Shown: positions 42,542 through 62,153 of the stretch, one piece after another
How positions within the stretch are numbered: the stretch's first letter is position 1
How the letters are laid out: the number at the start of each line of letters is the position of its first letter
Source: Arcobacter roscoffensis
Lineage (GTDB): Bacteria; Campylobacterota; Campylobacteria; Campylobacterales; Arcobacteraceae
Length of the DNA stretch: 64,000 bases
Reading direction: 5' to 3'
NCBI RefSeq assembly: GCF_024267655.1
Contig: NZ_CP100595.1
Location: 62,001-126,000 of the forward strand
Translations under genes and position numbers: made by a program
Notes under the pieces: generated by a model
Told to the model about the DNA's origin: nothing
The model's database searches: none
Seen by the model: only the letters and a program-made list of their open reading frames with translations

Positions 42542-43204
42542 ATGAAAATATTACTTTTAGAAGATGATTTATTGTTAAATGAGATTATCGAAGAGCATTT
42601 AGAAGAAAAAGCTTATGATGTTGATTGTGTTTATGATGGAAATGAGGCTTTAGATTATATTTATGAAAGAAACTATGATATATTTTTATTTGATGTTAAT
42701 GTACCTTCTTTAAATGGTTTTGATCTATTAAAACAAATAAGACAAAGAGGAATAAACACAGCAACTATTTTTATTACTTCTGCAAATTTACTTGAAGATG
42801 TTGAAGAGGGCTTTCGTTCAGGTTGTGATGACTATATAAAAAAGCCTTTTGAGTTAAAAGAATTAGATTTACGAATAGAAAATATTTGTAGATTACATAA
42901 TATCTCTCCCATAAAACTTATCAAAATAGATGAAACAACTAACTTAGATGCGAATAATTTAGAGGTTTTAAAAGAAAATAATAGCTATCATATTACACAA
43001 AAAGAGTGTGATGTTCTTTTATATCTAATAAAAAGAAAAAATGTAGCTGTGAGTGTTGATGAGTTAAGTATGAATGTTTGGGCATATGAAGATACTCCAA
43101 GCGCATCAACTATTAGAACTTATATTAAAAATTTAAGAAAAGTCTTAAATGAAAATATAATATCAAATATTAGAGGAGTGGGTTATAGATTTAACAGTAA
43201 ATGA
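42542..43204 (+). CDS. OmpR-family response regulator of the efflux locus
   Basis: Response regulator of 220 residues with phospho-Asp51 in FLFDVNVPSLNG, the YIKKPF lysine and a C-terminal winged helix ending NIRGVGYRFNSK. It opens a plus-strand run: kinase, YtkA/FixH-like protein, CusCBA-type efflux, YceI and a RiPP cassette. Because of this context I infer a CusR-like role in metal-responsive control. Its stop overlaps the expected kinase ATG (ATGA at 43201-43204). The four OmpR regulators in the window share the MKILLLED start and belong to one lineage-specific group. Confidence 0.92.
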   Translation: MKILLLEDDLLLNEIIEEHLEEKAYDVDCVYDGNEALDYIYERNYDIFLFDVNVPSLNGFDLLKQIRQRGINTATIFITSANLLEDVEEGFRSGCDDYIKKPFELKELDLRIENICRLHNISPIKLIKIDETTNLDANNLEVLKENNSYHITQKECDVLLYLIKRKNVAVSVDELSMNVWAYEDTPSASTIRTYIKNLRKVLNENIISNIRGVGYRFNSK

Positions 43205-44333
43205 AAAAAGTACTTATTATAAATTTGTTGGACTTTTTTTAGGCTCTTCTTTAATTCTAATTTTATTTTTAGCATTTTTTTATTTTCAAAATGAACAAAG
43301 ACTTTATTATGATTTAACAAAATCAAAAATGCAAAATAATTTATCAAAACTCTCATCAAATATCATTTTATCTCATATGTCAAATACTAAGTTTGATACT
43401 AGTAATTTATTAAAAAATCAAGATTACAAAATAGCTTTTTATGATTATAATAAAAAAAAGAGTTTTGGAAACCTAGATAGAGCAATTGATTTAGATAAAA
43501 AAGTTATTGAAATGAACAATAGTCTAATCTTAGTTGATGATTCAACTTTAGGTCATTTAGGAATTTTTTATCTGGCAATAGAGGATAACTCTTATCATAA
43601 AAAAATCTATGATTTAAAAATAGATATCTTACTATTTTTTTGTTTAGTCTATTTATTTATAGCAATTATAGGATTTTATCTAGCAAAGTTATTTTTAAAA
43701 CCTATAAAAGAAGAGAGAATTAAACTAAATAATTTCATCAAAGATACAACACATGAGTTAAATACTCCAATCAGTGCTATTATGATGTCAACTGAAAGCC
43801 CAAATCTAAATGAAAAGAAGATAGAACGTATAAGACTTAGTGCCCAAAGAGTCTCTGAAATATATAAAGATTTAACATATATTTTTTTACAAGATAAAAG
43901 TAAAAATAGAAATATCCAAAGTCATAATTTAAAAACACTAATTGAAGATCAGTTAGAGTATTTTATTCCACTTGCTAATAAAAAACGAGTTGAAATTGTA
44001 TGTAATATAGAAAATTATGCTTATGATATCGATAAAGATGATTTTATTAGAGTTATTAACAACCTTGTCTCAAATGCTTTAAAATACAATAAGGTGAATG
44101 GGAAAATATACCTAAGTTTAAAGGACAATATCTTAAAAGTAGAGGATACAGGTATAGGAATAAAAAAAGAGAAATTAGATGATATCTTCAAAAGATATTA
44201 TAGAGCCACAAACGAACAAGGTGGTTTTGGTCTAGGCTTAAATATAGTAAATGATATTTGCAAGGAATATAATATCAAAATTGATGTATCTTCAATATAT
44301 CAAAAATCTACAACTTTTCAACTAAAGTTTTAA
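43201..44333 (+). CDS. Sensor histidine kinase, start disrupted by A-run
   Basis: Membrane histidine kinase with TM1 (KFVGLFLGSSLILILFLAFFYF), a short periplasmic part, TM2 near LLFFCLVYLFIAIIGFYLAKLF, H-box HELNTPISA and G-box GGFGLGLNIV. The first in-frame ATG (43329) would remove TM1. The ATG expected at 43201 overlaps the regulator stop, but with six A after it the frame closes after 13 codons (MKKVLIINLLDFF). One more A would give MKKSTYYKFVGLFLGSS and a normal kinase of about 378 residues. Another option is AUA at 43185, seven bases after GAGGAG, which needs no frameshift. Pseudogene, phase variation and read error all remain open. Confidence 0.8.
43204..43209 (+). other. A6 run at the kinase start (frameshift site)
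   Basis: Six A residues directly follow the ATG at 43201. Seven would join that ATG to the kinase frame. A homopolymer directly after a start codon is a classic slippage or phase-variation site, and also a common sequencing-error site. Confidence 0.6.
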
Positions 44334-44394: not shown

Positions 44395-44778
44395 ATGAAG
44401 TCAATTTTCAAAGTAATTGTAGCAATGTTATTTACAGTTGGTATCTTAAATGCCGAACCTGTTTCTCAAACAGGTGAAAAGGGTGGATATACGATAAAGC
44501 TATCATCTGAAAAATCTTTAGTAGTTGGTGAAAATGATATTTTTGTTGAATTATCAAAAGATGGGCAAGTAGTAACAAATGCAAAAGTTAAATCAAAGTT
44601 CTTTATGCCAGAAATGCCAGGTATGCCATATATGGAGTACAAAGATAAAGCAAAACTTGTAAATGGTAAATATAAAATGATGATTAATTTCTCAATGGGT
44701 GGAACTTGGCAGTATCAACTTAAGTTTAAAACTAAAGAAGGGAAAGTTCATACTGTAAGAGGAAGCGTGAACTTATAA
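44395..44778 (+). CDS. Periplasmic YtkA/FixH-like Met-rich protein
   Basis: Exported protein of 127 residues with a Sec signal peptide ending GILNA (residue 20). The body is an immunoglobulin-like YtkA/FixH-type domain: GYTIKLSSEKSLVVGENDIFVEL, then FMPEMPGMPYMEY with five Met in a short loop, and GGTWQYQLKF. The Met cluster suits Cu(I) or Ag(I) binding. It starts 61 bases after the kinase and its stop overlaps the tolC-like start by one base. In related loci such a gene precedes a CusCBA system and is thought to act as a metallochaperone; here this is inferred from context. Confidence 0.8.
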   Translation: MKSIFKVIVAMLFTVGILNAEPVSQTGEKGGYTIKLSSEKSLVVGENDIFVELSKDGQVVTNAKVKSKFFMPEMPGMPYMEYKDKAKLVNGKYKMMINFSMGGTWQYQLKFKTKEGKVHTVRGSVNL

Positions 44779-45971
44779 TGAAAAAGCTAGCTTTAACTTT
44801 AACTCTATGTACCTCTTTTAGTTTTGCTGTATCAATTGATGAGATTGTGTCAAATAGTTTGCAAAATAGTAGTGATTTAAGAAGTTTAAATCAAGCCATT
44901 AAAGTTGCAAACGAGAATATCAAACTTACTTCAAAGTGGAGTGACCCAATACTTAGTTTTGGATTTAATGATATTCATTTTGATGAACCATTTAAAAGAG
45001 ATAAAGAAGCAATGCAAGCAACTTTTATTGGTCTATCACAAGTTATTCCAACAAATGGAAAGTTAGAAATAAAAGAAAAAATTGCTTTAAAAGATATGCA
45101 AATAAAAACACTTGTATTAGAAGATAAAAAGTTAAAGTTAAAAGCTAAAATCTATGAATTAGCTTACTCAATAGTGGTTTTAGAAAATAAACTAAAACTA
45201 CTAAATGAGTATGAAAAAAATATTAAAATATTAGAAGACTTATCTAAATCTCTTTATGAGTTTGGGAAGTCTACACAAAATGAAATACTTGATACAAAAG
45301 TTTTGTTTTTAAATGTACAAATTCAAAAACAAAAACTAAAAAATTTAATTGATAATTTATATTTAAAGTTAGAGCAAATATCTTATATGAATATAGATGA
45401 AATTTCTCAAAAAAGAATAGAAATAGAAAAACTAGTTTTAAATATGAATGTAAAAGAACATCCTTTCATAAAACAAGAGTATGTAAAATCAAAAAGATAT
45501 ATGTATCTTTCAAAACTTGAAAAAGCAAATGAAGTACCAGATATAAAAGTAAATGTAGCTTATTTTAATAGAGATAACAAGTTTGAAGATTATGCAAATA
45601 TTTCTGTGAATATTCCCTTAACCATAAATAATACACAAAGTGTAAAATCTTTAAAAGCAAAGTTTGAATCAAATAAAGTATCTTCAAAACTTGATGATAC
45701 AAAAAGAGTTTTACACACTGAACTTAAAACATATATAAATAGTGCAAATAGTGCATTAGTAAACTATGAACTTATAAAAAATCAAATTATACCCCTTAAG
45801 CAAAAGATTCAGAAGAGTCTTGAAAACTACAATAGTTTTTCAAGTGTAAAACCTCAATCTTTAATCAAAAACCTAAATGAGCTAATCTCTTTTGAGATAA
45901 AAGCCCTTGATGAGAAGTTTGAATACTTTTCAAACTATTCAAAAACAAAATATTATACATTAGAGGATTAG
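44778..45971 (+). CDS. cusC: TolC/CusC-type outer-membrane efflux protein
   Basis: Outer-membrane efflux protein of 397 residues. A signal peptide ends TSFSFA (residue 17). The rest is the repeated long-helix pattern of the OEP family (SLNQAIKVANENIKLTSKWSDPILSF, LYEFGKSTQNEILDTKVLFLNVQIQ). It is the outer channel of the tripartite pump with the next two genes, joined by three- and nine-base gaps. It is short for a TolC protein (usually 420-480), but both halves are visible. Confidence 0.87.
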   Translation: MKKLALTLTLCTSFSFAVSIDEIVSNSLQNSSDLRSLNQAIKVANENIKLTSKWSDPILSFGFNDIHFDEPFKRDKEAMQATFIGLSQVIPTNGKLEIKEKIALKDMQIKTLVLEDKKLKLKAKIYELAYSIVVLENKLKLLNEYEKNIKILEDLSKSLYEFGKSTQNEILDTKVLFLNVQIQKQKLKNLIDNLYLKLEQISYMNIDEISQKRIEIEKLVLNMNVKEHPFIKQEYVKSKRYMYLSKLEKANEVPDIKVNVAYFNRDNKFEDYANISVNIPLTINNTQSVKSLKAKFESNKVSSKLDDTKRVLHTELKTYINSANSALVNYELIKNQIIPLKQKIQKSLENYNSFSSVKPQSLIKNLNELISFEIKALDEKFEYFSNYSKTKYYTLED

Positions 45972-45974
45972 TAA

Positions 45975-46994
45975 ATGAAAAAATATTATTTTAAAAGTGC
46001 AGTTTTTTTATCAATATTTATTTTTACAAGTTTAAATGCAAAGATTATAGAAGTAGAGCAGCTTTTTAATAGAAAAACAGTAAAAGTAAAACAAGAAGAG
46101 CTTTCAATAACAAAAAGTTTTTATGGAAAGATGGCAATTGATGAGTCAAAAGTAGTTGATGTGGTTACTAGATTTGATGGATTTGTCACTAATTTAAAGG
46201 CTAATAAAACTTTTATGAAAGTAAATAAAAATGAAGAGCTTTTTCAAGTTTATTCAGATGAAATTTACTCAACTCAAAAAGAGTTGCAAATTGCAAAGAG
46301 AGTTAATAAAGCACTTTATTTAAGTACTTTAGAAAAACTAAAAGCTTTAGATATAAATAAAAAAGAGTTAGAAAAAATCAAAAGAAATAAACTCTCATAT
46401 AATGGTGTAAAAGTGTACTCACCTATAAATGCAATAGTTTTACAAAAAAATATAAACCACAAAGGTGCCATCAAAAAAGGTAACCTTTTATTGCAACTTG
46501 CAAATATCGAAAAACTTTGGTTTATTGCAAATATTTACCAAAAAGATTTGAACTTTTTAAAAGATGAGATGAAAGCTTTAGTTTATGTAGATGGAATATC
46601 TAATCCTATTAAAACAAAACTTGATTATGTTTATCCAACTGTAGATGAAAAAGATAAAAGTGTAGATGTAAGGTTTGTAGTTGATAACAAAGATTTAAAA
46701 CTTTATCCAAATATGTTTGGAAACATTAAACTAAAATCCATACAAAAAACAATGCTTACTCTTCCTAAAACAGCAGTTTTATCAAAAGGAAGTGAATATT
46801 ATGTATTTAAACCTATTTCTAAAAAAGAGTTTGAGCCTGTGAAGATTGAAGCAAAGAGATTGTCTTCTTATAAGTATGAAATACTTGATGGATTAGAAGA
46901 GGGTGATGAAGTTATAAATAATGCTTTATTCTTATTAGATTCTGATGCGGTTACAAATGCACTTTATGACTCTGATACAGATGATGATTGGTAG
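45975..46994 (+). CDS. cusB: RND efflux periplasmic adaptor (CusB-like)
   Basis: Membrane fusion protein of 339 residues. A signal peptide ends SLNA. It has a lipoyl-like half motif around VTRFDGFVTNLKANKTFMKV and VYSPINAIVLQKNINHKGAIKKG, a helical hairpin (TQKELQIAKRVNKALYLSTLEK), and a beta-barrel with LWFIANIYQKDLNFLK. It links the CusC-like channel to the CusA-like pump. CusB proteins usually carry an N-terminal Met-rich metal site; here only scattered Met are seen (MKV, MAID), so metal capture may fall to the preceding Met-rich protein. Confidence 0.9.
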   Translation: MKKYYFKSAVFLSIFIFTSLNAKIIEVEQLFNRKTVKVKQEELSITKSFYGKMAIDESKVVDVVTRFDGFVTNLKANKTFMKVNKNEELFQVYSDEIYSTQKELQIAKRVNKALYLSTLEKLKALDINKKELEKIKRNKLSYNGVKVYSPINAIVLQKNINHKGAIKKGNLLLQLANIEKLWFIANIYQKDLNFLKDEMKALVYVDGISNPIKTKLDYVYPTVDEKDKSVDVRFVVDNKDLKLYPNMFGNIKLKSIQKTMLTLPKTAVLSKGSEYYVFKPISKKEFEPVKIEAKRLSSYKYEILDGLEEGDEVINNALFLLDSDAVTNALYDSDTDDDW

Positions 46995-47003
46995 GAATAT
47001 ATT

Positions 47004-50000
47004 ATGGTTGAAAGTATAATCTCATATAGTATTAGAAATAAATTTTTAATTCTATTTTCAGTAATAGTTTTAAGTTTTGCTTCTTTTTGGGCAGTAAAAA
47101 ATACTTCTCTTGATGCAATTCCTGATTTATCACCACCTCAGGTTATTGTACAAGTTAAATGGCCAGGGCAAAGTCCTAAAACAATAGAAGAGCAAGTATC
47201 ATATCCTTTGATTTCAAATCTTATGAGTTTACCTGATATTGAAACAGTAAGAGCCATGAGTTCTTTTCAAAATGCTTTGATTTATATCATTTTTAAAGAT
47301 GGCACTGATTTATATGACTCAAGAAATAGAATTTTAGAGCAATTATCACAGCTTCAAGGAACATTTCCTGATGGTGTAAATGTTGCTATTGGACCAGATG
47401 CTACAGGAGTTGGTTGGGCTTATGAGTATGCTTTAAAATCAGATACAAAATCTCTTGATGAGTTAAGAACTTTACAAGATTACTATTATAAATATGCACT
47501 TTTAGGAGTTGATGGAGTAAGTGAAGTTGCTTCAATTGGTGGGTTTATAAAAAACTATGAGATAACACTAAATCAAGATAAATTAGTGCAGTATGATTTA
47601 AGTATAGATGAAATAAAAAAAGCTCTAACTTCAAACAATGATGAACAAGGTGGAAGAATAGTATTAGAAAATGGTTTTGAACATATGATTCAAGCTAAAG
47701 GCTATTTACAAAGTGTTGTTGATATTGAAAATATTACAATTAAAACTTTTAATAGTACACCTTTAAAAATAAAAGATATAGCTGATGTAAATATTACTTC
47801 AACAAACAGAAGAGGTATGGCTGATTTAAATGGAGAAGGTGATACAGTTGGTGGAATAGTTGTTGTAAGATATGGTGAAAACCCTTATGCTGTAATCAAA
47901 GACGTAAAGAAAAAGCTAGAAACTTTAAAAGTAGAGGGAGTTGAAGTAGTTGAGACTTATGATAGAACATCACTAATTGATAAGGCTATTGATACTTTAA
48001 AAAATACTCTTATTGAAGAGTCTATTATAGTTATTATTGTTAGTGCCTTATTTTTATTTCACTTTAGAAGTGCTTTGATTATTATCATTACTTTACCTAT
48101 TACTGTTTTAATTACCTTTTTACTGATGAAACTATTTGGAATGGGCTCAAATATTATGAGTTTAGGTGGTATTGCTATTGCCATTGGAGCAATGGTAGAT
48201 GCAACTATAGTTATGGTTGAAAATGCCCATAAGTATCTTCAAGGAAAAGAGAATATCTCTAATAAAGAGCGAGTAGAGATTATCATAAAATCAGCAAAAC
48301 AAGTAGGGCGTCCAATCTTTTTTGCACTTATTTTGGTTGTGGTATCTTTTTTACCTATATTTGCTTTAACAGGACAAGAAGGAAGACTATTTACTCCTCT
48401 TGCCTTTACTAAAACTTTTGCCATGATAGCAGGAGCTATTTTATCTATTACTTTAGTACCTATTTTAATGGTATTTTTAATAAAAGGAAAAATATTAAGT
48501 GAGAATAAAAATATCTTAAATAGATTTTTCACACTTTTATATTCGCCAATGTTAAAAGCTTCTCTAAAACTAAGATACTTAATAGTATTAGGCTTTATAG
48601 GAACCATCATAGCTGCATATCCAGTTTATAAAAAACAAAACTGGGAATTTATGCCTATGATGAACGAACAAACTTTTATGTATATGCCTGTAACTCCTTA
48701 TGGAATAGGTGTTGATCTTGCAAGAGAGCTTACAAATAAAACAGATAAGATTATCAAGTCTTTCCCTGAGGTAGATACCGTATTTGGTAAAGCAGGGCGA
48801 GCAGATACAGCTACTGACCCAGCACCACTTGCAATGATTGAAACGATTATTACTTTTAAGCCTGAAAATGAATGGCGTGAGGGAATGACATATAAAAAGC
48901 TTATGCAAGAAATGGATGATAAGTTAAGAGTAGCAGGGCTTATAAACTCTTGGACATATCCTATTAGAGGAAGAATTGATATGCTTTTAACAGGTATTAG
49001 AACTCCTCTTGGAATTAAACTTTATGGAAGTGGCCATGAACAACTAGAAACAACAGCTGGATTAATAGAGCAAAAACTAAAAGAGTTTGATAAAACTTTA
49101 TCTGTATCAACTGATAAAATAAATTCGGGATATTATTTAAATATAGAGGTAAAAGAAGAGCTTTTATCAAGATATGGAATTAGTAAAAATGATATTTTAT
49201 CAACTATTAGTTTAGGAGTTGCAGGAAGTAAAATCTCAACTTTTATTGATGGTTTAGAGAGATACCCAATAAGTCTAAGATATGAAACAGCTCAAAGAGA
49301 AGATATTACAGCTTTAAAAAACTTACAAGTTAAAACAAAGCTAGGTTTTCAGCCTTTAGAAATGTTTGCAGAACTTTACTATGAAGAAGGGCCATCTGTT
49401 ATAAAATCTGAGAAGGCTTTAAATGTAAACTTTATTTACATCACACCAAAAAATGGTATTTCATCTAAACAGTACAAAGATGAAGCTGTAAAACTTCTTG
49501 AAGATATTAAACTTCCAGAAGGCTACTATTTTGAGTGGGCAGGGCAGAGTGAATATCTTGAGTCAGCAATGCAAAGACTTGCATATATCATTCCTTTAAC
49601 ATTTGTGCTTATCTTCATTTTGATATATTTTGCACTAAGAAATATCACTTATACAGTAATAATCTTTTTTACATTGCCATTTGCATTAACAGGTGGGATA
49701 TTCTATTTAGATTATCTAAACTTTAATATCTCTATTGCTGTAATAGTTGGTTTTTTAGCTCTTTTAGGAGTTGCTGCTGAAACTTCTATTGTGATGCTTG
49801 TTTATTTACATGAAGCCATGAATGAGCTAGTTAAAAAACAAGTAAAGTTTACAAAAGAGCATATATTCAATGGTATATATAAAGGTGCTGTTTTAAGACT
49901 AAGACCTAAACTTATGACACTATTTGCTATTTTGGGTGGACTAATTCCTATTATGTATATAGATGGAGTAGGAAGTGAAGTTATGCAAAGAATTGCAGCA

Positions 50001-50120
50001 CCTATGATTGGAGGTATGATTAGTTCAGCTTTATTAACGCTTATCATTATTCCGGCAATATTTTATATATATGCAATATACAAGGGTGATAAGTTAAAAG
50101 ATATTACAGTTAGTCACTAA
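47004..50120 (+). CDS. cusA: Heavy-metal RND efflux pump (CusA/CzcA-like)
   Basis: Inner-membrane proton-driven pump of 1038 residues, HME subfamily. N-terminal helix and SLDAIPDLSPPQVIVQVKWPGQ are typical of CusA/CzcA. The proton-relay helix is LGGIAIAIGAMVDATIVMVENAHK, with the acidic residues of the HME branch. The repeated second half has ALLGVAAETSIVMLVYLHEAMNE. Many Met in the periplasmic domain (FMPMMNEQTFMYMPVTPYG) fit a monovalent copper or silver substrate. It ends the cusCBA set; a hairpin follows in the gap before yceI. Confidence 0.93.
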   Translation: MVESIISYSIRNKFLILFSVIVLSFASFWAVKNTSLDAIPDLSPPQVIVQVKWPGQSPKTIEEQVSYPLISNLMSLPDIETVRAMSSFQNALIYIIFKDGTDLYDSRNRILEQLSQLQGTFPDGVNVAIGPDATGVGWAYEYALKSDTKSLDELRTLQDYYYKYALLGVDGVSEVASIGGFIKNYEITLNQDKLVQYDLSIDEIKKALTSNNDEQGGRIVLENGFEHMIQAKGYLQSVVDIENITIKTFNSTPLKIKDIADVNITSTNRRGMADLNGEGDTVGGIVVVRYGENPYAVIKDVKKKLETLKVEGVEVVETYDRTSLIDKAIDTLKNTLIEESIIVIIVSALFLFHFRSALIIIITLPITVLITFLLMKLFGMGSNIMSLGGIAIAIGAMVDATIVMVENAHKYLQGKENISNKERVEIIIKSAKQVGRPIFFALILVVVSFLPIFALTGQEGRLFTPLAFTKTFAMIAGAILSITLVPILMVFLIKGKILSENKNILNRFFTLLYSPMLKASLKLRYLIVLGFIGTIIAAYPVYKKQNWEFMPMMNEQTFMYMPVTPYGIGVDLARELTNKTDKIIKSFPEVDTVFGKAGRADTATDPAPLAMIETIITFKPENEWREGMTYKKLMQEMDDKLRVAGLINSWTYPIRGRIDMLLTGIRTPLGIKLYGSGHEQLETTAGLIEQKLKEFDKTLSVSTDKINSGYYLNIEVKEELLSRYGISKNDILSTISLGVAGSKISTFIDGLERYPISLRYETAQREDITALKNLQVKTKLGFQPLEMFAELYYEEGPSVIKSEKALNVNFIYITPKNGISSKQYKDEAVKLLEDIKLPEGYYFEWAGQSEYLESAMQRLAYIIPLTFVLIFILIYFALRNITYTVIIFFTLPFALTGGIFYLDYLNFNISIAVIVGFLALLGVAAETSIVMLVYLHEAMNELVKKQVKFTKEHIFNGIYKGAVLRLRPKLMTLFAILGGLIPIMYIDGVGSEVMQRIAAPMIGGMISSALLTLIIIPAIFYIYAIYKGDKLKDITVSH

Positions 50121-50140
50121 AGTTATAAATTTAGTGACTA
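50111..50140 (+). terminator. Hairpin between cusA and yceI
   Basis: Perfect 11-base inverted repeat TAGTCACTAAA/TTTAGTGACTA with an eight-base loop, overlapping the cusA stop. No T-run follows, so it may be a partial terminator or an mRNA-stabilising hairpin. A TATAAAAT box at 50166-50173 could give yceI and the RiPP genes a separate promoter. Confidence 0.55.
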
Positions 50141-50215
50141 CTTAACATTAACTACACAAAAAACATATAAAATTCTTTTATCAAAACAAATAAGGGTTAA
50201 ATAAAAGGAGACAAA

Positions 50216-50794
50216 ATGGGATTTTTTAGTAAGCTTTTAGGTACAGCAGTATTAACAGCAGGTGTAGCATTTGCAACACCATATAACTTAGATGGCTCAC
50301 ATACAAATGTAGGTTTTTCAGTAAAACACCTGATGATTACAAATGTAAAGGGTGATTTTAAGAAATATGATGCAAAAATTGATTTTGATAATAAAACAAA
50401 AAGTTTCAATACTTTTGAAGCAAATATAAATACAGCTTCAATTGATACAGGTATTGAAAAAAGAGATAATCACTTAAAAAGTGGAGATTTCTTCTTATCT
50501 GAAAAATTTCCTAAAATGACTTTTGTGATGAAATCATATAAAGCAAATGGTGATGAAGGAAAAATGCAAGGTGATTTAACTATCAGAGGTATTACAAAGC
50601 CAGTTACATTAGAAGTTGAAGATTTAGCAACAGTTAAGGACTTCAAAGGAAATAATAGAGTTGGGTTTACTTTAAAAGGTAAAATCAATAGAATGGACTA
50701 TGACTTAAAATGGAACAAAGCTTTAGAGTTTGGTGGTGTTGCAGTTAGTGAAACTGTTAAGATTATCGTAGATGTTCAAGCAATTGAAAAATAA
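50216..50794 (+). CDS. yceI: YceI-family periplasmic protein
   Basis: Exported lipocalin-like protein of 192 residues. A signal peptide ends GVAFA (residue 19). The YceI pattern is complete: YNLDGSHTNVGFSVKHLMITNVKG, FNTFEANINTASIDTG, RDNHLKSGDFFLSEKFPKMTF, GDLTIRGITKPVTLEV and GVAVSETVKIIVDVQAI. YceI proteins bind polyisoprenoid or similar lipids in a barrel. The gene has AAAGGAG upstream and lies 33 bases before the RiPP precursor gene, tying it to the metal-stress region. Confidence 0.94.
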   Translation: MGFFSKLLGTAVLTAGVAFATPYNLDGSHTNVGFSVKHLMITNVKGDFKKYDAKIDFDNKTKSFNTFEANINTASIDTGIEKRDNHLKSGDFFLSEKFPKMTFVMKSYKANGDEGKMQGDLTIRGITKPVTLEVEDLATVKDFKGNNRVGFTLKGKINRMDYDLKWNKALEFGGVAVSETVKIIVDVQAIEK

Positions 50795-50827
50795 ATAAAA
50801 ATTTAAATTAAACAAAAGGAAGAAAAA

Positions 50828-51166
50828 ATGAGTAAGAAAATGAAATTAGCAGGAATTATGCTAGGAGCGGCACTTTCAACATCTGCTGCGTTTGCAGGAA
50901 GTGGATCTTGTGGAGCTGGAAAATGTGGTGGTGAAACTAAGAAAATGGAAAAGAAAGGTGCTTGCGGTGCTGGTAAGTGCGGTGGTGAAGCTAAAAAAGA
51001 TATGAAAAAAGGTGCTTGTGGAGCTGGAAAATGTGGTGGTGACATGAAAAGCGACATGAAGAAAGATATGAAAAAAGGTGCTTGTGGTGCTGGTAAGTGT
51101 GGTGCTGACAAGAAAAAAGTAGAGAAAAAAGCAACTGGTGCTTGTGGCGCTGGTAAGTGTGGATGA
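50828..51166 (+). CDS. hvfA: Cys-rich RiPP precursor (HvfA/bufferin-like)
   Basis: Exported precursor peptide of 112 residues. A Sec signal peptide ends TSAAFA (residue 23). The rest is a Lys/Gly-rich chain with five CGAGKCG blocks at residues 28-34, 46-52, 64-70, 86-92 and 106-112, ten Cys in all, separated by Lys-rich spacers (KKDMKKGA and similar). It is followed 18 bases later by the MNIO oxidase gene and then its DUF2063 partner, the arrangement of HvfA/bufferin-type RiPPs. In those, Cys in a GKCG context are oxidised to heterocycles that bind copper. Here the residue before GKCG is Ala, not the Glu I recall for HvfA. Confidence 0.9.
   Translation: MSKKMKLAGIMLGAALSTSAAFAGSGSCGAGKCGGETKKMEKKGACGAGKCGGEAKKDMKKGACGAGKCGGDMKSDMKKDMKKGACGAGKCGADKKKVEKKATGACGAGKCG
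50909..51163 (+). repeat. Five CGAGKCG-encoding repeats in the precursor gene
   Basis: Five degenerate copies of about 21 bases encoding CGAGKCG, spaced 54-66 bases apart. Codon choices differ between copies (ggagctggaaaatgt versus ggtgctggtaagtgt), so the protein sequence is kept by selection rather than by very recent DNA duplication. Confidence 0.88.
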
Positions 51167-51184
51167 AACGGAGAAGATGATTAG

Positions 51185-52006
51185 ATGATAAATTTAAAAG
51201 GCTGTGGCTTAGGACTTCGAAGCGATTTTCTGCTTGATTTAAAAGATACAAAGTTTAGACCAGATTTTTGGGAGGTGACTCCTGAAAACTGGATGCATAT
51301 GCCAAAACTTTTTGAAAAAGCTTTTGAGGAAGCAGTTTTTGAAAGACCAACTATAGCCCATGGTTTATCTCTATCAATTGGATCTGTTGACAAACTTAAT
51401 AAAAAGTTTGTCAAACAGATCAAAACTTTTTTAGATAGATATAATATTGAATACTATTCTGAACATCTAAGTTTTTCATCACTGGATAACAGACAGTCTT
51501 ACGAATTATTACCTGTTCCTATGACTAAAAAAATGATTGAAGTTATAAGTGATAGAGTTAAAGAGGTTGAGGATATTATTCAAAGAAATTTGATACTTGA
51601 AAATGCTACTTATTATTTAGTGCCTTATAGTGAAATGGCAGAAGTTGACTTTATAAATGAAGTTATGGAAAAATCAGGTGCTAAAATGCTTCTTGATGTA
51701 AACAATGTATTTGTAAACTCAGTAAATCATGGCTTTAAAGCAAGAAAGTTTATTGACCAAATAGATAAAAGTAAAGTTGCTTACATGCACATGGCAGGGC
51801 ATTATTTTGATGAAGAAGCAAATATGAAGATAGACTCACATGGAATGCCAATAGACAAGGGTGTATGGAAGCTTTTAGATTATACTTTAAAGCAAGTAGA
51901 TGCTCCTGTTATGATTGAAAGGGACAATAATATTCCTCCTTTAGAAGAGTTGATAAGTGAATATAAACAAATGAGAAAAATTTGTAAAGAAGTTAGAAAT
52001 GGCTAA
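51185..52006 (+). CDS. hvfB: DUF692 multinuclear iron oxidase (MNIO), HvfB/BufB-like
   Basis: Multinuclear non-heme iron oxidative enzyme of 273 residues, TIM-barrel DUF692 family, which modifies Cys in a partner RiPP precursor. Candidate metal ligands in the expected order are His59 (IAHGLSLSIG), Glu93/His94 (SEHLSF), Glu139/Asn140 (LENATYY), Asp171/Asn174 (LLDVNN), His182, His202/His206 (HMAGH), Asp217/His219 (DSHG) and Glu245 (MIERDNN). All are present, so it should be active. It overlaps the DUF2063 gene by eight bases. Substrate is inferred to be the CGAGKCG protein just upstream. Confidence 0.93.
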   Translation: MINLKGCGLGLRSDFLLDLKDTKFRPDFWEVTPENWMHMPKLFEKAFEEAVFERPTIAHGLSLSIGSVDKLNKKFVKQIKTFLDRYNIEYYSEHLSFSSLDNRQSYELLPVPMTKKMIEVISDRVKEVEDIIQRNLILENATYYLVPYSEMAEVDFINEVMEKSGAKMLLDVNNVFVNSVNHGFKARKFIDQIDKSKVAYMHMAGHYFDEEANMKIDSHGMPIDKGVWKLLDYTLKQVDAPVMIERDNNIPPLEELISEYKQMRKICKEVRNG

Positions 52007-52685
52007 ATTAGAAAGAGATGTAGAAAATAGATTTTTTGATATTATTTCTAATCAAAAAGAAAATCCAAGTTCTAATGCTTTTGGGATTTATCAAAAGTTG
52101 GTATTTTATAGATATGAAGAGATTATCAATAATACCTTTCCACTTTTTTTAGAATATATCTCACCAAAAGAGTTAGAAGAAACTCTATACTTATTTATAA
52201 AAAATCCACCTTCAACTCCTTTTGTTTGGCAAATAGCAAATGATTATAGAAAAATGGTGAAAAAGAATAAGCTATTTCATGATAGAAAATATCTATATGA
52301 ACTTTTATATTTTGACTGGATAGAGTTAGAACTTCTAATGAAAGAGTATAAAGTAAAAAAGCCAAAAGAGTTTTCATGGGATAGTTCACACTCTTTAAGT
52401 AAAAGCTCTAGAATCAAGAGATTTAAATATGATATTATAAATGCTAATTATGAAGAAAAAAGAGAAAACTTCACAGTAATATACTACGACTTTTCAAGTG
52501 ATGAGGTATTATTTAGAGAGGTAAATGAGTTTCTATATGCTCTTTTAAAAAATCTAAATAAAAAAGAATCAATCAAAAAAACACTTAAAAAACTTTGTAA
52601 ACAAAATGATATAGATTTAAATGAAGCTATAGAGGTTTTACAAGAGCCTTTAAAAGAGCTGCTTTATAATAAAGTTATACTTTAA
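51999..52685 (+). CDS. hvfC: DUF2063-type RiPP partner protein (HvfC/BufC-like)
   Basis: Protein of 228 residues. The N-terminal 95 residues match the DUF2063 domain, which recruits the precursor to the MNIO enzyme (FGIYQKLVFYRYEEIINNTFPLF). The C-terminal part forms a second helical/winged region ending LQEPLKELLYNKVIL. Coupled to the oxidase gene by an eight-base overlap. Together with the two upstream genes it makes the minimal A-B-C cassette. The fourth gene of Haemophilus-type clusters, a DoxX membrane protein, is missing; the next gene is flgE. Confidence 0.86.
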   Translation: MAKLERDVENRFFDIISNQKENPSSNAFGIYQKLVFYRYEEIINNTFPLFLEYISPKELEETLYLFIKNPPSTPFVWQIANDYRKMVKKNKLFHDRKYLYELLYFDWIELELLMKEYKVKKPKEFSWDSSHSLSKSSRIKRFKYDIINANYEEKRENFTVIYYDFSSDEVLFREVNEFLYALLKNLNKKESIKKTLKKLCKQNDIDLNEAIEVLQEPLKELLYNKVIL

Positions 52686-52745
52686 TTGCCACATCATTGA
52701 CACATAGATTTGTTAAACTTCAAAAAATATTTGGAGTTATAAATC

Positions 52746-55700
52746 ATGATTGGCGCACTATGGACGGGGATATCTGGACTATCTTCACAACAACAAGCAT
52801 TAGACAATGAATCAAATAATATTGCCAATGTAAATACAATCGGATTTAAGTCATCAAGAATATCATTTGCAGACCAAATGTACCAAGATAGAATTGGTAA
52901 AGGTTCAAAGATATTAGATGCAGAGAAACTATACACACAAGGTAACCTAAAATTAACAGGTGTTGATTACGATATGGCCTTAAGTGGTGAGGGTTTCTTT
53001 ACAGTTGCAAATACAAGAGCAACAGGAACAACTGAGAACTTCTATACAAGAGCTGGAAACTTTAGAATGGGTGATAATGGAACCCTTCAAGATTCAGCTG
53101 GAAATGAAGTACAAGGTTGGATGATGACTTCAATTGATCCACAAAAAGATGTAACAAGTACAAATCCAAATGTAAATGTATTTACAAATGATTATACTAA
53201 ACTTTTATCATCGAAAATCATAAAACATAGTACATATGTAGAAACAATTACAGCAAAAGCCACTGATTATACTCAAACAGCAAAGGGTGACTCAGAAACA
53301 GTATTTGACGGAGCAGGATATAAAAGTAAATCTGCAAAAGTATCAGATATTGAAGCTGCAATAAAAGATTATGCTACGTGGCTACAAAGATTATCAGAAG
53401 AGCCAGATGGAGCATCAGCAACATCAACAGCACAAGTATCACATATTAACTTTAAAACATCAGATGCAGACTCACTAGTAAGTAAAGAGGGTGAAGAAAT
53501 ATATGTATTTATAGATGGTGTAAAAAAATCACAAACATATATATCAACAACAGCAACTGAACAATGGATTAAAGACTTTTATGTAGATGCAGCTGCAAAT
53601 ACACCATTTGGAGATACATACCTAGCAGATTATAGTTTACCTGCAACAGGAACATTATCATCACCTCCAACAGATGCAGAAATTGATGCTCTAACAAGTG
53701 CACAAAAAGATACTTTAAATATGATAGCAAGTAGAATTGAGACATATAAAGGTTTAGCAAATAAGATTTCTGATGAAGTACCAGGCTTAGTAGCACATAT
53801 ATCAGATGAGGGTGGAGGAACAAATAATGATGTATTAGAATTAGATGATACATTAAGTCCAAATTCTCATGATTTATACCAAATGTCAAAAGGTATAATA
53901 CAGATTAAATCACTTATACCAGGACAAGAGTTTACAATATCAGAAGTGGGTGAAAGTTCAGGTAATACAACAGTACAAGGTAACTATTTAACAACAATTG
54001 CAGCTAAAAAAGGTGAGGGTATTGGAGCATTAGAATCATCAAAAGATGCTTTATCTAAACTTATTACTGGTAAGCAAAGAGATGTTTATACTACTAGTGA
54101 TTTACAACTTGGTAAATCAACTGTTTTTAATTATAATATAACTATATACGATAAAGAGTTAGAACAAAGTATTCCAGTTCCAAATGATGGAGCAACACCA
54201 CCAAATCCTGTACCTATGTTTATTGATGCAACTGCCAGTAGTCCTTCTGGATCAATAGACAAATTTGTAGAAAATTTTAATAAAGGTTTAGATGCAGATG
54301 GAAACCCTCTTTCTCCTGCTATAAGTGATTATGTTGTTGCAAAAAATATTAATGGAAGCTTAGTAATTGAAACGTTAGATGAGAATTATGATGTTGAGTT
54401 TACTAGTTCTCTTAAGCATGTACCTTCTATAAAGATTGACTTGAATGAAGTGGTAGACAATTCAATATATAATTTTGATTTAGTTGTTGATGGTACTAAT
54501 ATCTCAATAGGGCATGATTTTACAGGAAATAACATATTAACAAGTAGTGATGTTTTTAATGAAATACAAACCAACTTCTTAACTTCTTTCCCTAATATTC
54601 CTGGTCAAGATATTAAAATAAGTAGCTTATCTGATGATACTTTTGTTATTTATTCTACAAATGAGGATACAACTTTTGCAAGTTCAAGTTCAGAAATAGT
54701 ATCTGAACAAAAGATTACAGGTGTATTAACACCTTCTACTACACCTTCAACTCAGATGCAAATTGGTAATATTGAAATAGCCTCATCCGGACCATTTGTC
54801 GGAGGGGAGGTTTTTGACTTTGAAATATTGGGCCAGACATTTTCTTATACGGCAGTTGCAGGCGATACTCAAACTACAGTTAGAGATGAATTATATAATC
54901 AAGTTTTATTAAATAATAGTGTAACTGATTATAGTTCTATTTCAACAGTGGGTTCAAATGGGATTAGATTTAATCAAACAAGTTTAAATTTATCACCTTC
55001 ATTACCAGACTATACTTTAAATATAAATGGTGGAAGTAATACTAATAATTCTGGCGATACTCAAGCTTTTATTCTTCGTTCCGCACATGTTGATAGTTAT
55101 ACTTTAGATCTAGCTAATAAATCAGATTCAACTTTAACATTAAATGTTGAAGGAGTATTATTTACAGTTAGGACTACTCAAGATGCTACAAATGCAATAT
55201 CACAAACTTTAATAAACACACAATTAAGTGATCAACTTGCAAGTAGTACTTTATCCTCAAGAGTAGATAGTATAGTTCTAAGTGGTACAACACTTACAAT
55301 TACAGAAAAACTTGATGAAAATGGATATAGACCTTTTTCTTCTAATACTATTTCTGTTCAAGATTTAGATAATCCAAATGATGGTTATGAAACAATGACA
55401 TACTCTGTTTCAGAAACATTACCTCTTGATAAAAATAATAACTTCAGTGGTAGACAAGGAGCAGGTGCAGAGTTTATTGAGCTTATAAATAAAGTAGATC
55501 AAACTGCTACAAAAGGGTCATTACAATTAAGACTTGATACTTTAGGTATTTCTGATTCTGCCTTTGGTGAGTTCTCAGTTGATAGTACGGGTCTTATTAT
55601 GATGAAACAAGATGGAGCTGATTTTGCAATTGGTCAAGTAGCAATTGCTTTATTTAATAATAATAGAGGTTTAAATCCATCAGGAGATAACTTACTTGCT

Positions 55701-55907
55701 AAAACAAATGATTCTGGTGAGCCAATTTATAACTTAAATAATGATAAAACTGCAAAAGTTGAAGGAAGTACTTTGGAGTTAAGTACAGCTGATTTAAGTG
55801 AGAGTTTAGTAAATCTTATGGTATTTCAAAGAGCTTTTGAAGCAAATGCTAAGTCAATTACAACATCAGATCAGTTATTGAACACTTTAATAAATTTAAA
55901 AAGATAG
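52746..55907 (+). CDS. flgE: Flagellar hook protein FlgE
   Basis: Hook protein of 1053 residues, larger than the usual 400-850. The N-terminal D0 segment is MIGALWTGISGLSSQQQALDNESNNIANVNTIGFK (quoted in part) and the matching C-terminal one is NLMVFQRAFEANAKSITTSDQLLNTLINL. Between them lies a long Thr/Ser/Asp-rich region with several variable surface domains. It assembles the extracellular hook linking basal body and filament. TTGGAG lies nine bases before the ATG. It is 60 bases downstream of the DUF2063 gene, with no terminator seen between, and its stop is two bases from the convergent flagellin stop. Confidence 0.93.
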   Translation: MIGALWTGISGLSSQQQALDNESNNIANVNTIGFKSSRISFADQMYQDRIGKGSKILDAEKLYTQGNLKLTGVDYDMALSGEGFFTVANTRATGTTENFYTRAGNFRMGDNGTLQDSAGNEVQGWMMTSIDPQKDVTSTNPNVNVFTNDYTKLLSSKIIKHSTYVETITAKATDYTQTAKGDSETVFDGAGYKSKSAKVSDIEAAIKDYATWLQRLSEEPDGASATSTAQVSHINFKTSDADSLVSKEGEEIYVFIDGVKKSQTYISTTATEQWIKDFYVDAAANTPFGDTYLADYSLPATGTLSSPPTDAEIDALTSAQKDTLNMIASRIETYKGLANKISDEVPGLVAHISDEGGGTNNDVLELDDTLSPNSHDLYQMSKGIIQIKSLIPGQEFTISEVGESSGNTTVQGNYLTTIAAKKGEGIGALESSKDALSKLITGKQRDVYTTSDLQLGKSTVFNYNITIYDKELEQSIPVPNDGATPPNPVPMFIDATASSPSGSIDKFVENFNKGLDADGNPLSPAISDYVVAKNINGSLVIETLDENYDVEFTSSLKHVPSIKIDLNEVVDNSIYNFDLVVDGTNISIGHDFTGNNILTSSDVFNEIQTNFLTSFPNIPGQDIKISSLSDDTFVIYSTNEDTTFASSSSEIVSEQKITGVLTPSTTPSTQMQIGNIEIASSGPFVGGEVFDFEILGQTFSYTAVAGDTQTTVRDELYNQVLLNNSVTDYSSISTVGSNGIRFNQTSLNLSPSLPDYTLNINGGSNTNNSGDTQAFILRSAHVDSYTLDLANKSDSTLTLNVEGVLFTVRTTQDATNAISQTLINTQLSDQLASSTLSSRVDSIVLSGTTLTITEKLDENGYRPFSSNTISVQDLDNPNDGYETMTYSVSETLPLDKNNNFSGRQGAGAEFIELINKVDQTATKGSLQLRLDTLGISDSAFGEFSVDSTGLIMMKQDGADFAIGQVAIALFNNNRGLNPSGDNLLAKTNDSGEPIYNLNNDKTAKVEGSTLELSTADLSESLVNLMVFQRAFEANAKSITTSDQLLNTLINLKR

Positions 55908-55909
55908 GA

Positions 55910-57226
55910 TTAATTTTTAAGAAGTTCAAGAACTCTTTGTTGGGTTTCGTTACCTTTTGCTTGGGCAAAAGAGCCCCCTTGACTCATTACATTAAGTTTA
56001 GAGAAGTTTGCACTCTCTTGTGCGTAGTCAACATCTCTAATAATGCTTTCGGCATTTTTTGTATTAACATAATCTGTCATAAGATTTCTTGTAGTAGATT
56101 CAAGTTGGTTTGTAGATGAACCAACATCACTTCTTATGGAGTTTAATTGGCTTAATGAATGGTCAATTATATCTAGTAAATCAATTGCTTGCTGTTTTAA
56201 GTTATCATCATTTCTAAATTCTTCAGAAATGGGCTTAGAAATAGGATTTGTATTATCATAAGTAAAGTTAAATGGACCAATTTTTTGTTCATTAACTGGA
56301 ATAGAGACTTTTCTTTCAATAATATTATCACCTCTTTTTAAAGTTACAGTAATATCTATAGGCTCGTTATTAGGCCAATTATTTGAATAGTTATTTATCC
56401 AATATTTATACTCTCCATTTGGAGCTACTGTATCCCAATAAAAATTTTCTTGATTAGGATTATTCATTGAAGTTGAATTGTTTCCAGTGTCATCAATATC
56501 CCATATACCTAAAGATGGTGATCCATTAGAAGTATCATGGGTTGAAGAATTAAAGCCAATAGCATTACCATTAGGGTCAGCTACAATAGGGTCTATATCT
56601 AAATCTTCATTCCAAGAAAAATTAACTCTTATCACTCCTGATGAGCCTGCTAAGTTTCCTTCTTCTTCTAAAGGATTAATGACTTCATTAAAGCCAGTAA
56701 TAAAGCCTACTACTTTCTGAGGAATATTTAAACCTAAATCATGGGAGTATGATGAGTCGATTTGTGCAGTAACAATATCTGACTCTTTATTTCCAACATG
56801 AAAATGAAAAGGGGTCAATTCTCCTGTTAATAAAGGCATATTATTATAATTCGTTTGTCTTACAATTGAGTCATAATTATCAATTAGTTTTAAAATCTCT
56901 GTTTTTATAATTTTTCTACCTTCTTCTGAGGTAGTATCTGTAGCCATTTGAATAGATTTTGTTTTTATAATATCTAATATATTACTTAATTCATCCATTG
57001 CTTTATCAGCAATATTTAGCATAGCAATACCACTATTTGCATTTGCAATACTTTGTTTTATTCCACTTGCATGAGTTCTAAGTTTATCTGCTATAGCAAT
57101 ACCTGATGCATCATCACTAGCTTTATTTATTCTAAGTCCTGAAGATAGGTTATTTAATGATTTAGTTGTCTTTTTAGTGTTGTTTGTATAATTTTCATTT
57201 ATTGCAGAAATTATATTAAGATTCAT
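55910..57226 (-). CDS. Flagellin with inserted YfaP-like beta domain
   Basis: Flagellin of 438 residues. The D0/D1 N-terminus is MNLNIISAINENYTNN onward with LNNLSSGLRINKASDDASG, and the C-terminus has VDYAQESANFSKLNVMSQGGSFAQA. Residues about 190-330 hold an extra beta-rich domain: VIRVNFSWNEDLDIDPIVAD, PNGNAIGF, LGIWDIDDTGN, APNGEYKYWINNYSNNW. This resembles the YfaP/DUF2135 beta sandwich. Its start lies inside the last codons of the response regulator gene, 11 bases of overlap, so it is translated from the two-component operon. It may be a minor or specialised filament protein. Confidence 0.92.
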   Translation of the reverse strand: MNLNIISAINENYTNNTKKTTKSLNNLSSGLRINKASDDASGIAIADKLRTHASGIKQSIANANSGIAMLNIADKAMDELSNILDIIKTKSIQMATDTTSEEGRKIIKTEILKLIDNYDSIVRQTNYNNMPLLTGELTPFHFHVGNKESDIVTAQIDSSYSHDLGLNIPQKVVGFITGFNEVINPLEEEGNLAGSSGVIRVNFSWNEDLDIDPIVADPNGNAIGFNSSTHDTSNGSPSLGIWDIDDTGNNSTSMNNPNQENFYWDTVAPNGEYKYWINNYSNNWPNNEPIDITVTLKRGDNIIERKVSIPVNEQKIGPFNFTYDNTNPISKPISEEFRNDDNLKQQAIDLLDIIDHSLSQLNSIRSDVGSSTNQLESTTRNLMTDYVNTKNAESIIRDVDYAQESANFSKLNVMSQGGSFAQAKGNETQQRVLELLKN

Positions 57227-62131: not shown

Positions 62132-62153
62132 CATAGAACTATAAAGTTCTATG
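62132..62153. terminator. Hairpin between Sel1 and MATE genes
   Basis: CATAGAACT-ATAA-AGTTCTATG, a perfect nine-base stem spanning the end of the convergent MATE gene. It may terminate both strands although no long T-run is present. Confidence 0.45.

Follow-up and report, generated by a model that had tools for sequence, protein, structure and literature searches.

A predicted HvfABC-type copper peptide cassette with a glutamate-less repeat at a Cus locus of an Arcobacteraceae bacterium

What is made by a small exported protein with five CGAGKCG blocks, a DUF692 enzyme and a DUF2063-type partner, and does a repeat with Ala in place of Glu signal unusual chemistry? An earlier note on the 64,000-nucleotide stretch of DNA analyzed here (the window) recognized an HvfABC/bufferin architecture, considered the AGKCG core, the paired upstream Cys and the lack of a following DoxX gene unusual, and proposed a different or double modification per repeat. 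The reading favored here, with a probability of about 0.7, is an HvfABC-type cassette at a Cus locus, in which an MNIO tuned to a Glu-less repeat makes a thiooxazole copper-buffering peptide and maturation is optional.

The Cassette and Its Setting

The host, a marine Arcobacter-like bacterium, belongs to the Arcobacteraceae, judging by its relatives, and has a 3.15-Mb genome in one contig. The cassette closes a Cus-type copper-efflux locus (Table 1), and the same-strand two-component, YtkA-like, CusC/CusB/CusA-type and YceI genes upstream indicate that the setting is export of copper or a related metal. The YceI gene is a common neighbor of the precursor in Arcobacteraceae, with or without an MNIO. 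The precursor and MNIO genes are 18 nt apart, and the MNIO and HvfC-like genes overlap by 8 nt. A promoter and terminator scan of 49900-53000 gave a result near chance.

Table 1. Features of the cassette and its upstream neighborhood (window coordinates)
Feature	Position	Strand	Evidence
Two-component response regulator and sensor kinase	42542..44333	+	
YtkA-like periplasmic protein	44395..44778	+	
Outer-membrane efflux protein (CusC-like)	44778..45971	+	
CusB-type periplasmic adaptor	45975..46994	+	
CusA-type RND heavy-metal efflux pump	47004..50120	+	TIGR00914 over cut-off
YceI-family periplasmic protein, 33 nt 5' of precursor	50216..50794	+	
Precursor, 112 aa, Sec-like signal (residues 1-23) and five CGAGKCG blocks	50828..51166	+	NF050137, 35.3 bits (cut-off 19.5)
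CGAGKCG block 1	50909..50929	+	
CGAGKCG block 2	50963..50983	+	
CGAGKCG block 3	51017..51037	+	
CGAGKCG block 4	51083..51103	+	
CGAGKCG block 5, exact C-terminus of precursor	51143..51163	+	
MNIO (DUF692, HvfB-like), 273 aa	51185..52006	+	PF05114, E=2e-87
MNIO Ser13, equivalent of FonB Arg16 (reader of substrate Glu1)	51221..51223	+	
MNIO Asn248, equivalent of FonB Phe250 (beside catalytic base)	51926..51928	+	
HvfC-like partner, PME1/DUF2063-type with RRE-like domain, 228 aa	51999..52685	+	

The host genome contains no second MNIO. The nearest counterpart of the enzyme shares 93% identity with it, Poseidonibacter, Halarcobacter and Arcobacter are among the named relatives, and a plasmid search with the MNIO returned nothing over 60% identity among 349 records. 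A sequence search of the PDB matched it to 3BWW (E=3e-51), and the candidate iron ligands proposed earlier are borne out, since ligand and catalytic residues, including the catalytic base, are kept across a 75-row MNIO alignment (conserved residues E30, H59, H94, E139, N173/N174, H182, H202, D217, H219 and D247). Its score lies under the NCBIfam equivalog cut-off (318.8 versus 360 bits), as does that of the HvfC-like protein (NF050145, E=3e-19, 69.8 versus 142 bits). The latter is over cut-off for PF22106 and just under it for DUF2063. A sequence search of the PDB led nowhere for this protein, and its family was settled by fold: the AlphaFold model (pLDDT 89) has 3DEE (NGO1945) as its top Foldseek match (E=3e-7), followed by TglHI. 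The overlapping DUF2063 gene of the earlier note is thus a PME1/DUF2063-type partner with an RRE-like domain.

At the locus, no DoxX (HvfX) gene adjoins the cassette; the next gene encodes a flagellar hook-type protein. The earlier note was right about this absence, which is nevertheless ordinary: DoxX lies beside the MNIO cassette in 11 of 24 Campylobacterota MNIO loci and is missing in the close relatives L041-L048. The hook-type protein is very long (1053 aa) and is accompanied by a flagellin (52746-57226). In relatives, the peptide or HvfC gene has a MATE gene next to it; here this gene is found about 10 kb further on, at 62139, so that the window has an insertion or rearrangement behind the cassette.

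The Precursor Repeat

The precursor is, as first described, an exported protein with exactly five CGAGKCG blocks and ten Cys. Its signal, Sec-like as judged by eye, is MSKKMKLAGIMLGAALSTSAAFA. Shuffling the residues of the mature part 100,000 times never gave the motif more than once, and the CGxGKCG DNA pattern has six sites in the genome, five in the precursor and the other in a PCuAC copper chaperone tail. The precursor has repeated KCGxxKCG-type motifs behind its Sec-like signal and scores over the NF050137 cut-off; with the NCBIfam HvfA model it scores 23.7 bits, under the cut-off of 95. A Pfam search of the precursor gave no match at all, including to DUF2282, the Buf1 precursor family. 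What stands of the proposed architecture is the HvfABC-type RiPP cassette and its copper context, and not the Buf1/Buf2 bufferins proper.

Each block is made of two half-repeats, xG[S/A]CG followed by AGKCG, for ten half-repeats in total. The first halves read SGSCG, KGACG or TGACG and all five second halves AGKCG, so that, compared with the canonical repeat, Ala replaces Glu in the second half and Ser or Ala replaces Lys in the first. EGKCG cores, with Glu at repeat position 1, do not occur in the host precursor; EGKCG is the most frequent motif of the Lys-Cys repeat class and not a strict requirement (PMC13097082). The paired upstream Cys is present but canonical, because the EGKCGEGKCG double repeats of HvfA and FonA have the same Cys-x4-Cys spacing; its interpretation as an extra residue was rejected, as it belongs to the first half of the double repeat.

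A scan of the whole collection for two nearby CGAGKCG motifs returned 67 contig stretches, mostly from Campylobacterota (Arcobacter, Poseidonibacter, Aliarcobacter, Halarcobacter, Sulfurimonas, Sulfurospirillum and others); a few came from Gammaproteobacteria and from Saprospiraceae MAGs. At the Campylobacterota MNIO loci sampled, the repeat usually reads AGKCG or TGKCG, and AGKCG is present too in one gammaproteobacterial clade. AGKCG is thus ordinary in one phylum, and the suggestion that it is a rare form was rejected. No mention of it was found in the published surveys consulted, which center on Pseudomonadota, and literature searches found no experiment on any AGKCG precursor and nothing on MNIO in Campylobacterota. 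In Saprospiraceae MAGs (L124, L133, L105 and L130), KCG repeats form chimeras with an EF-hand; L124 and L133 adjoin a Gluconate_2-dh3 homologue, and an MNIO is absent from the L105 and L124 genomes.

Enzyme-Substrate Covariation

In FonB, Arg16 contacts the repeat Glu and Phe250 contacts residues around the Cys (PMC13097082). FonB numbering was carried over through 3BWW motifs (GYRRDL and ERDFN) rather than through the FonB sequence itself, and MNIOs were paired with their own upstream precursors. The Arg16 equivalent is Arg in 27 of 28 gammaproteobacterial EGKCG loci and is lost, to Gln, Leu or Asn, in all six gammaproteobacterial loci with a second-half AGKCG. Campylobacterota MNIOs all have Asn at the Phe250 equivalent, and the second half of their repeats begins with Ala or Thr, occasionally Ser. 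Arg16 is mostly kept in this phylum when the first half is [D/E]xKCG, and residue 16 is Ser when the first half is xG[S/A]CG (the window clade and L111). In a maximum-likelihood tree, Campylobacterota MNIOs form one clade (100/98) and the sampled gammaproteobacterial AGKCG enzymes another (100/99), nested in EGKCG enzymes; the tree forces two origins of Ser16.

Taken together, these comparisons are suggestive of joint change in MNIO residue 16 and the repeat, with about three independent changes and with exceptions (L063/L064, L093, L119 and L168). The covariation looks new, and it agrees with the behavior of FonA E6A, which re-creates a second-half AGKCG and is a poor substrate of FonBC (PMC13097082). 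Given this poor turnover, processing of the host precursor would rest on an adapted MNIO. If it holds, the covariation could serve as a substrate code that is open to testing across thousands of MNIO clusters.

The same positions bear on how many Cys are modified. Since each block matches EGKCG-EGKCG, a single ring on every Cys is to be expected by default. Modification might instead be confined to the second-half AGKCG Cys, leaving the first-half xG[S/A]CG Cys as a free thiol and giving five thiooxazole-thiol pairs: in the window clade the Lys before Cys is kept in the second half alone, the first half has Ser or Ala in nearly all repeats, the Arg16 equivalent is Ser, and FonBC modified some altered motifs just once (PMC13097082). 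This outcome is unlikely, though a real contender, as FonBC also processed EAACGEGACG, making Lys before Cys dispensable for FonBC (PMC13097082), and all six Cys of HvfA can be modified (PMC13419390).

Peptides without Enzymes

Among 397 Campylobacterota genomes, NF050137 is found in 39 and PF05114 in 25 above cut-off, and the MNIO is absent from 21 of the 39 peptide genomes; in one of these 21 (G249), the match is a tagged YtkA protein and not a free-standing peptide. All 15 MNIO-less peptide genomes tested lack HvfC as well. The MNIO accompanies the peptide in 75 of 76 gammaproteobacterial genomes (1/76 without versus 21/39, Fisher p=2e-11, comparing two samples with kinship ignored). An assembly artifact was rejected as the cause, as nine of the 21 genomes have no more than two contigs and gammaproteobacterial drafts still have the MNIO at the rate given above. 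An overlooked divergent MNIO was likewise rejected: PF05114 at E<=0.001 over the 397 genomes added two sub-cut-off matches, both in peptide-less genomes. Frequent occurrence of the peptide without MNIO in Campylobacterota looks new. It also corrects current naming, because the NF050137 label 'oxazolone/thioamide-modified' is applied even in genomes without any MNIO.

Arcobacteraceae loci share Cus genes and/or YceI followed by the peptide. In some (L041, L043 and L047), MNIO-HvfC comes next and a MATE gene follows about +1530 nt from the peptide; in others (L033-L039) the MATE gene is already reached at +30 to +54 nt, and nothing but a hairpin-like stretch separates it from the peptide. The otherwise same locus with or without MNIO-HvfC marks these enzymes as a clean two-gene presence/absence module. 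Such loci are matched pairs with which the benefit of a thiooxazole over plain cysteine could be measured.

The enzyme-less relatives L033-L039, with the same peptide at the same locus, would also suit a plain periplasmic metallothionein, with MNIO and HvfC acting elsewhere or dispensable. That explanation is improbable, because the MNIO, when present, starts within about 50 nt of the precursor in the tabulated loci and goes together with tighter conservation of the repeat. With an MNIO, 81 of 82 repeats (20 loci) have Ala at position 1, versus 24 of 33 (9 loci) without, where the residue drifts to Thr or Ser (Fisher p=4e-5 counting repeats and p=0.005 counting loci). This is the pattern expected if the MNIO reads repeat position 1, and the enzyme thus appears to constrain the motif.

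Single genomes can hold more than one such protein. One (G329; L052, L049) has an enzyme-less peptide at a Cus-type locus and, at another site, a peptide-MNIO-HvfC-DoxX cassette. Two different CGxGKCG proteins per genome, one with a lipoprotein-like signal (LLLSGC or LLLSAC), occur at L072 and L197/L198 (G037 and G009).

CGxGKCG Tags and the GMC Neighborhood

The motif is also found as a tag. The PCuAC chaperone of the host genome (L212 4107-4637; C1:581110) has a C-terminal CGxGKCG tail in one copy, and that of G329 (L068 4978-5574) has three copies. In G249, a genome without MNIO, a YtkA-like protein (L202 4268-4717) of the same family as the YtkA-like protein in Table 1 has the N-terminal tag MKCGAGKCGASM, which includes CGAGKCG. 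Tags on PCuAC and YtkA-like proteins suggest that the bare motif binds copper.

Outside Arcobacteraceae, the enzyme-less peptide is often accompanied by DoxX, a Gluconate_2-dh3-type protein and a GMC oxidoreductase. A GMC neighborhood within about 5 kb is present at 10-11 of the 19 enzyme-less loci counted there and at 0 of 24 MNIO loci (p=1e-5 for 11/19). The most compact arrangement is a row of four genes in L204 (1728-4493); the peptide is also in a row with Gluconate_2-dh3 and GMC genes in L040, L069, L207, L208, L203 and L199, and these rows, with that of L204, mostly include HvfX/DoxX. The DoxX beside the enzyme-less peptide belongs to the HvfX family; the single example tested scores above the NCBIfam cut-off. 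In non-adjacent cases, the GMC protein is in 3/3 enzyme-less peptide genomes, and it was found in 0/8 peptide-less genomes of one genus and in 0/6 MNIO genomes.

A tentative generalization, held at somewhat below even odds, is that CGxGKCG is a portable element for periplasmic copper binding in Campylobacterota without MNIO, with the MNIO-HvfC pair as an upgrade and the GMC pair as a Sulfurimonas-like replacement. If so, the motif would work as a stand-alone peptide or as a PCuAC/YtkA tag, MNIO-HvfC would be an upgrade module gained and lost, and a GMC flavoprotein and Gluconate_2-dh3-type small subunit with HvfX/DoxX would replace MNIO-HvfC in Sulfurimonas-like lineages, possibly as an unrecognized maturation or recycling system. 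The points worth following are how MNIO and repeat covary and how the maturation module is gained or lost.

Proposed Pathway

From the genes, motifs, synteny, family memberships, covariation and co-occurrence described above, we infer the chemistry, copper binding and enzyme-free function as follows. The product of the host cassette is very probably a thiooxazole copper peptide. Before export, HvfC would bind the precursor through its signal peptide as leader and present it to the MNIO; HvfBC prefers a precursor bearing its signal peptide (PMC13419390). The mixed-valent iron center of the MNIO, tuned to the Glu-less repeat by Ser and Asn at the Arg16 and Phe250 equivalents, would oxidize the Cys of each half-repeat (up to ten), each becoming a 5-thiooxazole with a loss of 4 Da. 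FonBC accepts Ala at repeat positions 1 and 3 (PMC13097082). The peptide would then enter the periplasm via Sec, where thiooxazoles and any unmodified Cys pairs may hold Cu(I), buffering copper for the Cus pump; products of FonABC/HvfABC-type pathways bind copper (PMC13097082; PMC13419390). Because the peptide persists at the same locus in many relatives that lack the enzymes, the bare CGxGKCG peptide probably binds copper without maturation, and the MNIO-HvfC pair would be an optional upgrade.

The different or double modification per repeat proposed earlier, for example a bicyclic or crosslinked product, finds some room in the changed Phe250 and Arg16 equivalents, which could alter regiochemistry, and in the S/A-C-G rather than K-C-G context of the first-half Cys in the window clade, but is very improbable, given canonical Cys-x4-Cys spacing, full conservation of the MNIO catalytic residues, continued 5-thiooxazole formation by FonB Ala variants at Arg16 and Phe250, and acceptance of substrates with Ala at positions 1 or 3 (PMC13097082).

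Comparison with Known Systems

By its genes and motifs, the host cassette is best classed as a Campylobacterota variant of the HvfABC (oxazolin/captophorin) cassette. The bufferins Buf1 (DUF2282) and Buf2 share with it the MNIO and DUF2063 partner, Sec export and the copper buffering predicted for the host, but their precursor families are unrelated to the host precursor. The Buf_EGKCG/oxazolin family (Antoine et al. 2025, PMC12452194) likewise has exported precursors with MNIO and DUF2063 genes, although its repeats are of the EGKCG type and it was reported mostly from Pseudomonadota. A precursor without MNIO was seen in only 67 of 2583 genomes in that survey, versus 21 of 39 in Campylobacterota here.

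The captophorins fontiphorin and gonophorin (FonABC and NgoABC; PMC13097082) share with the host the Lys-Cys repeat class and the PME1 partner, and FonA has paired repeats, as in the host precursor. The Glu at repeat position 1 in FonABC and the cognate FonB Arg16 are both lost in the host. A close comparison may also be made with oxazolin HvfABCX of nontypeable Haemophilus influenzae (PMC13419390), which has the same precursor-MNIO-HvfC order, precursor Sec signal, paired Cys-x4-Cys half-repeats, iron ligands and catalytic base. In contrast to oxazolin, the host has AGKCG instead of EGKCG with a first half of xG[S/A]CG, Ser and Asn at the Arg16 and Phe250 equivalents of its MNIO, no adjacent DoxX (HvfX), and a cassette placed behind a Cus efflux locus.
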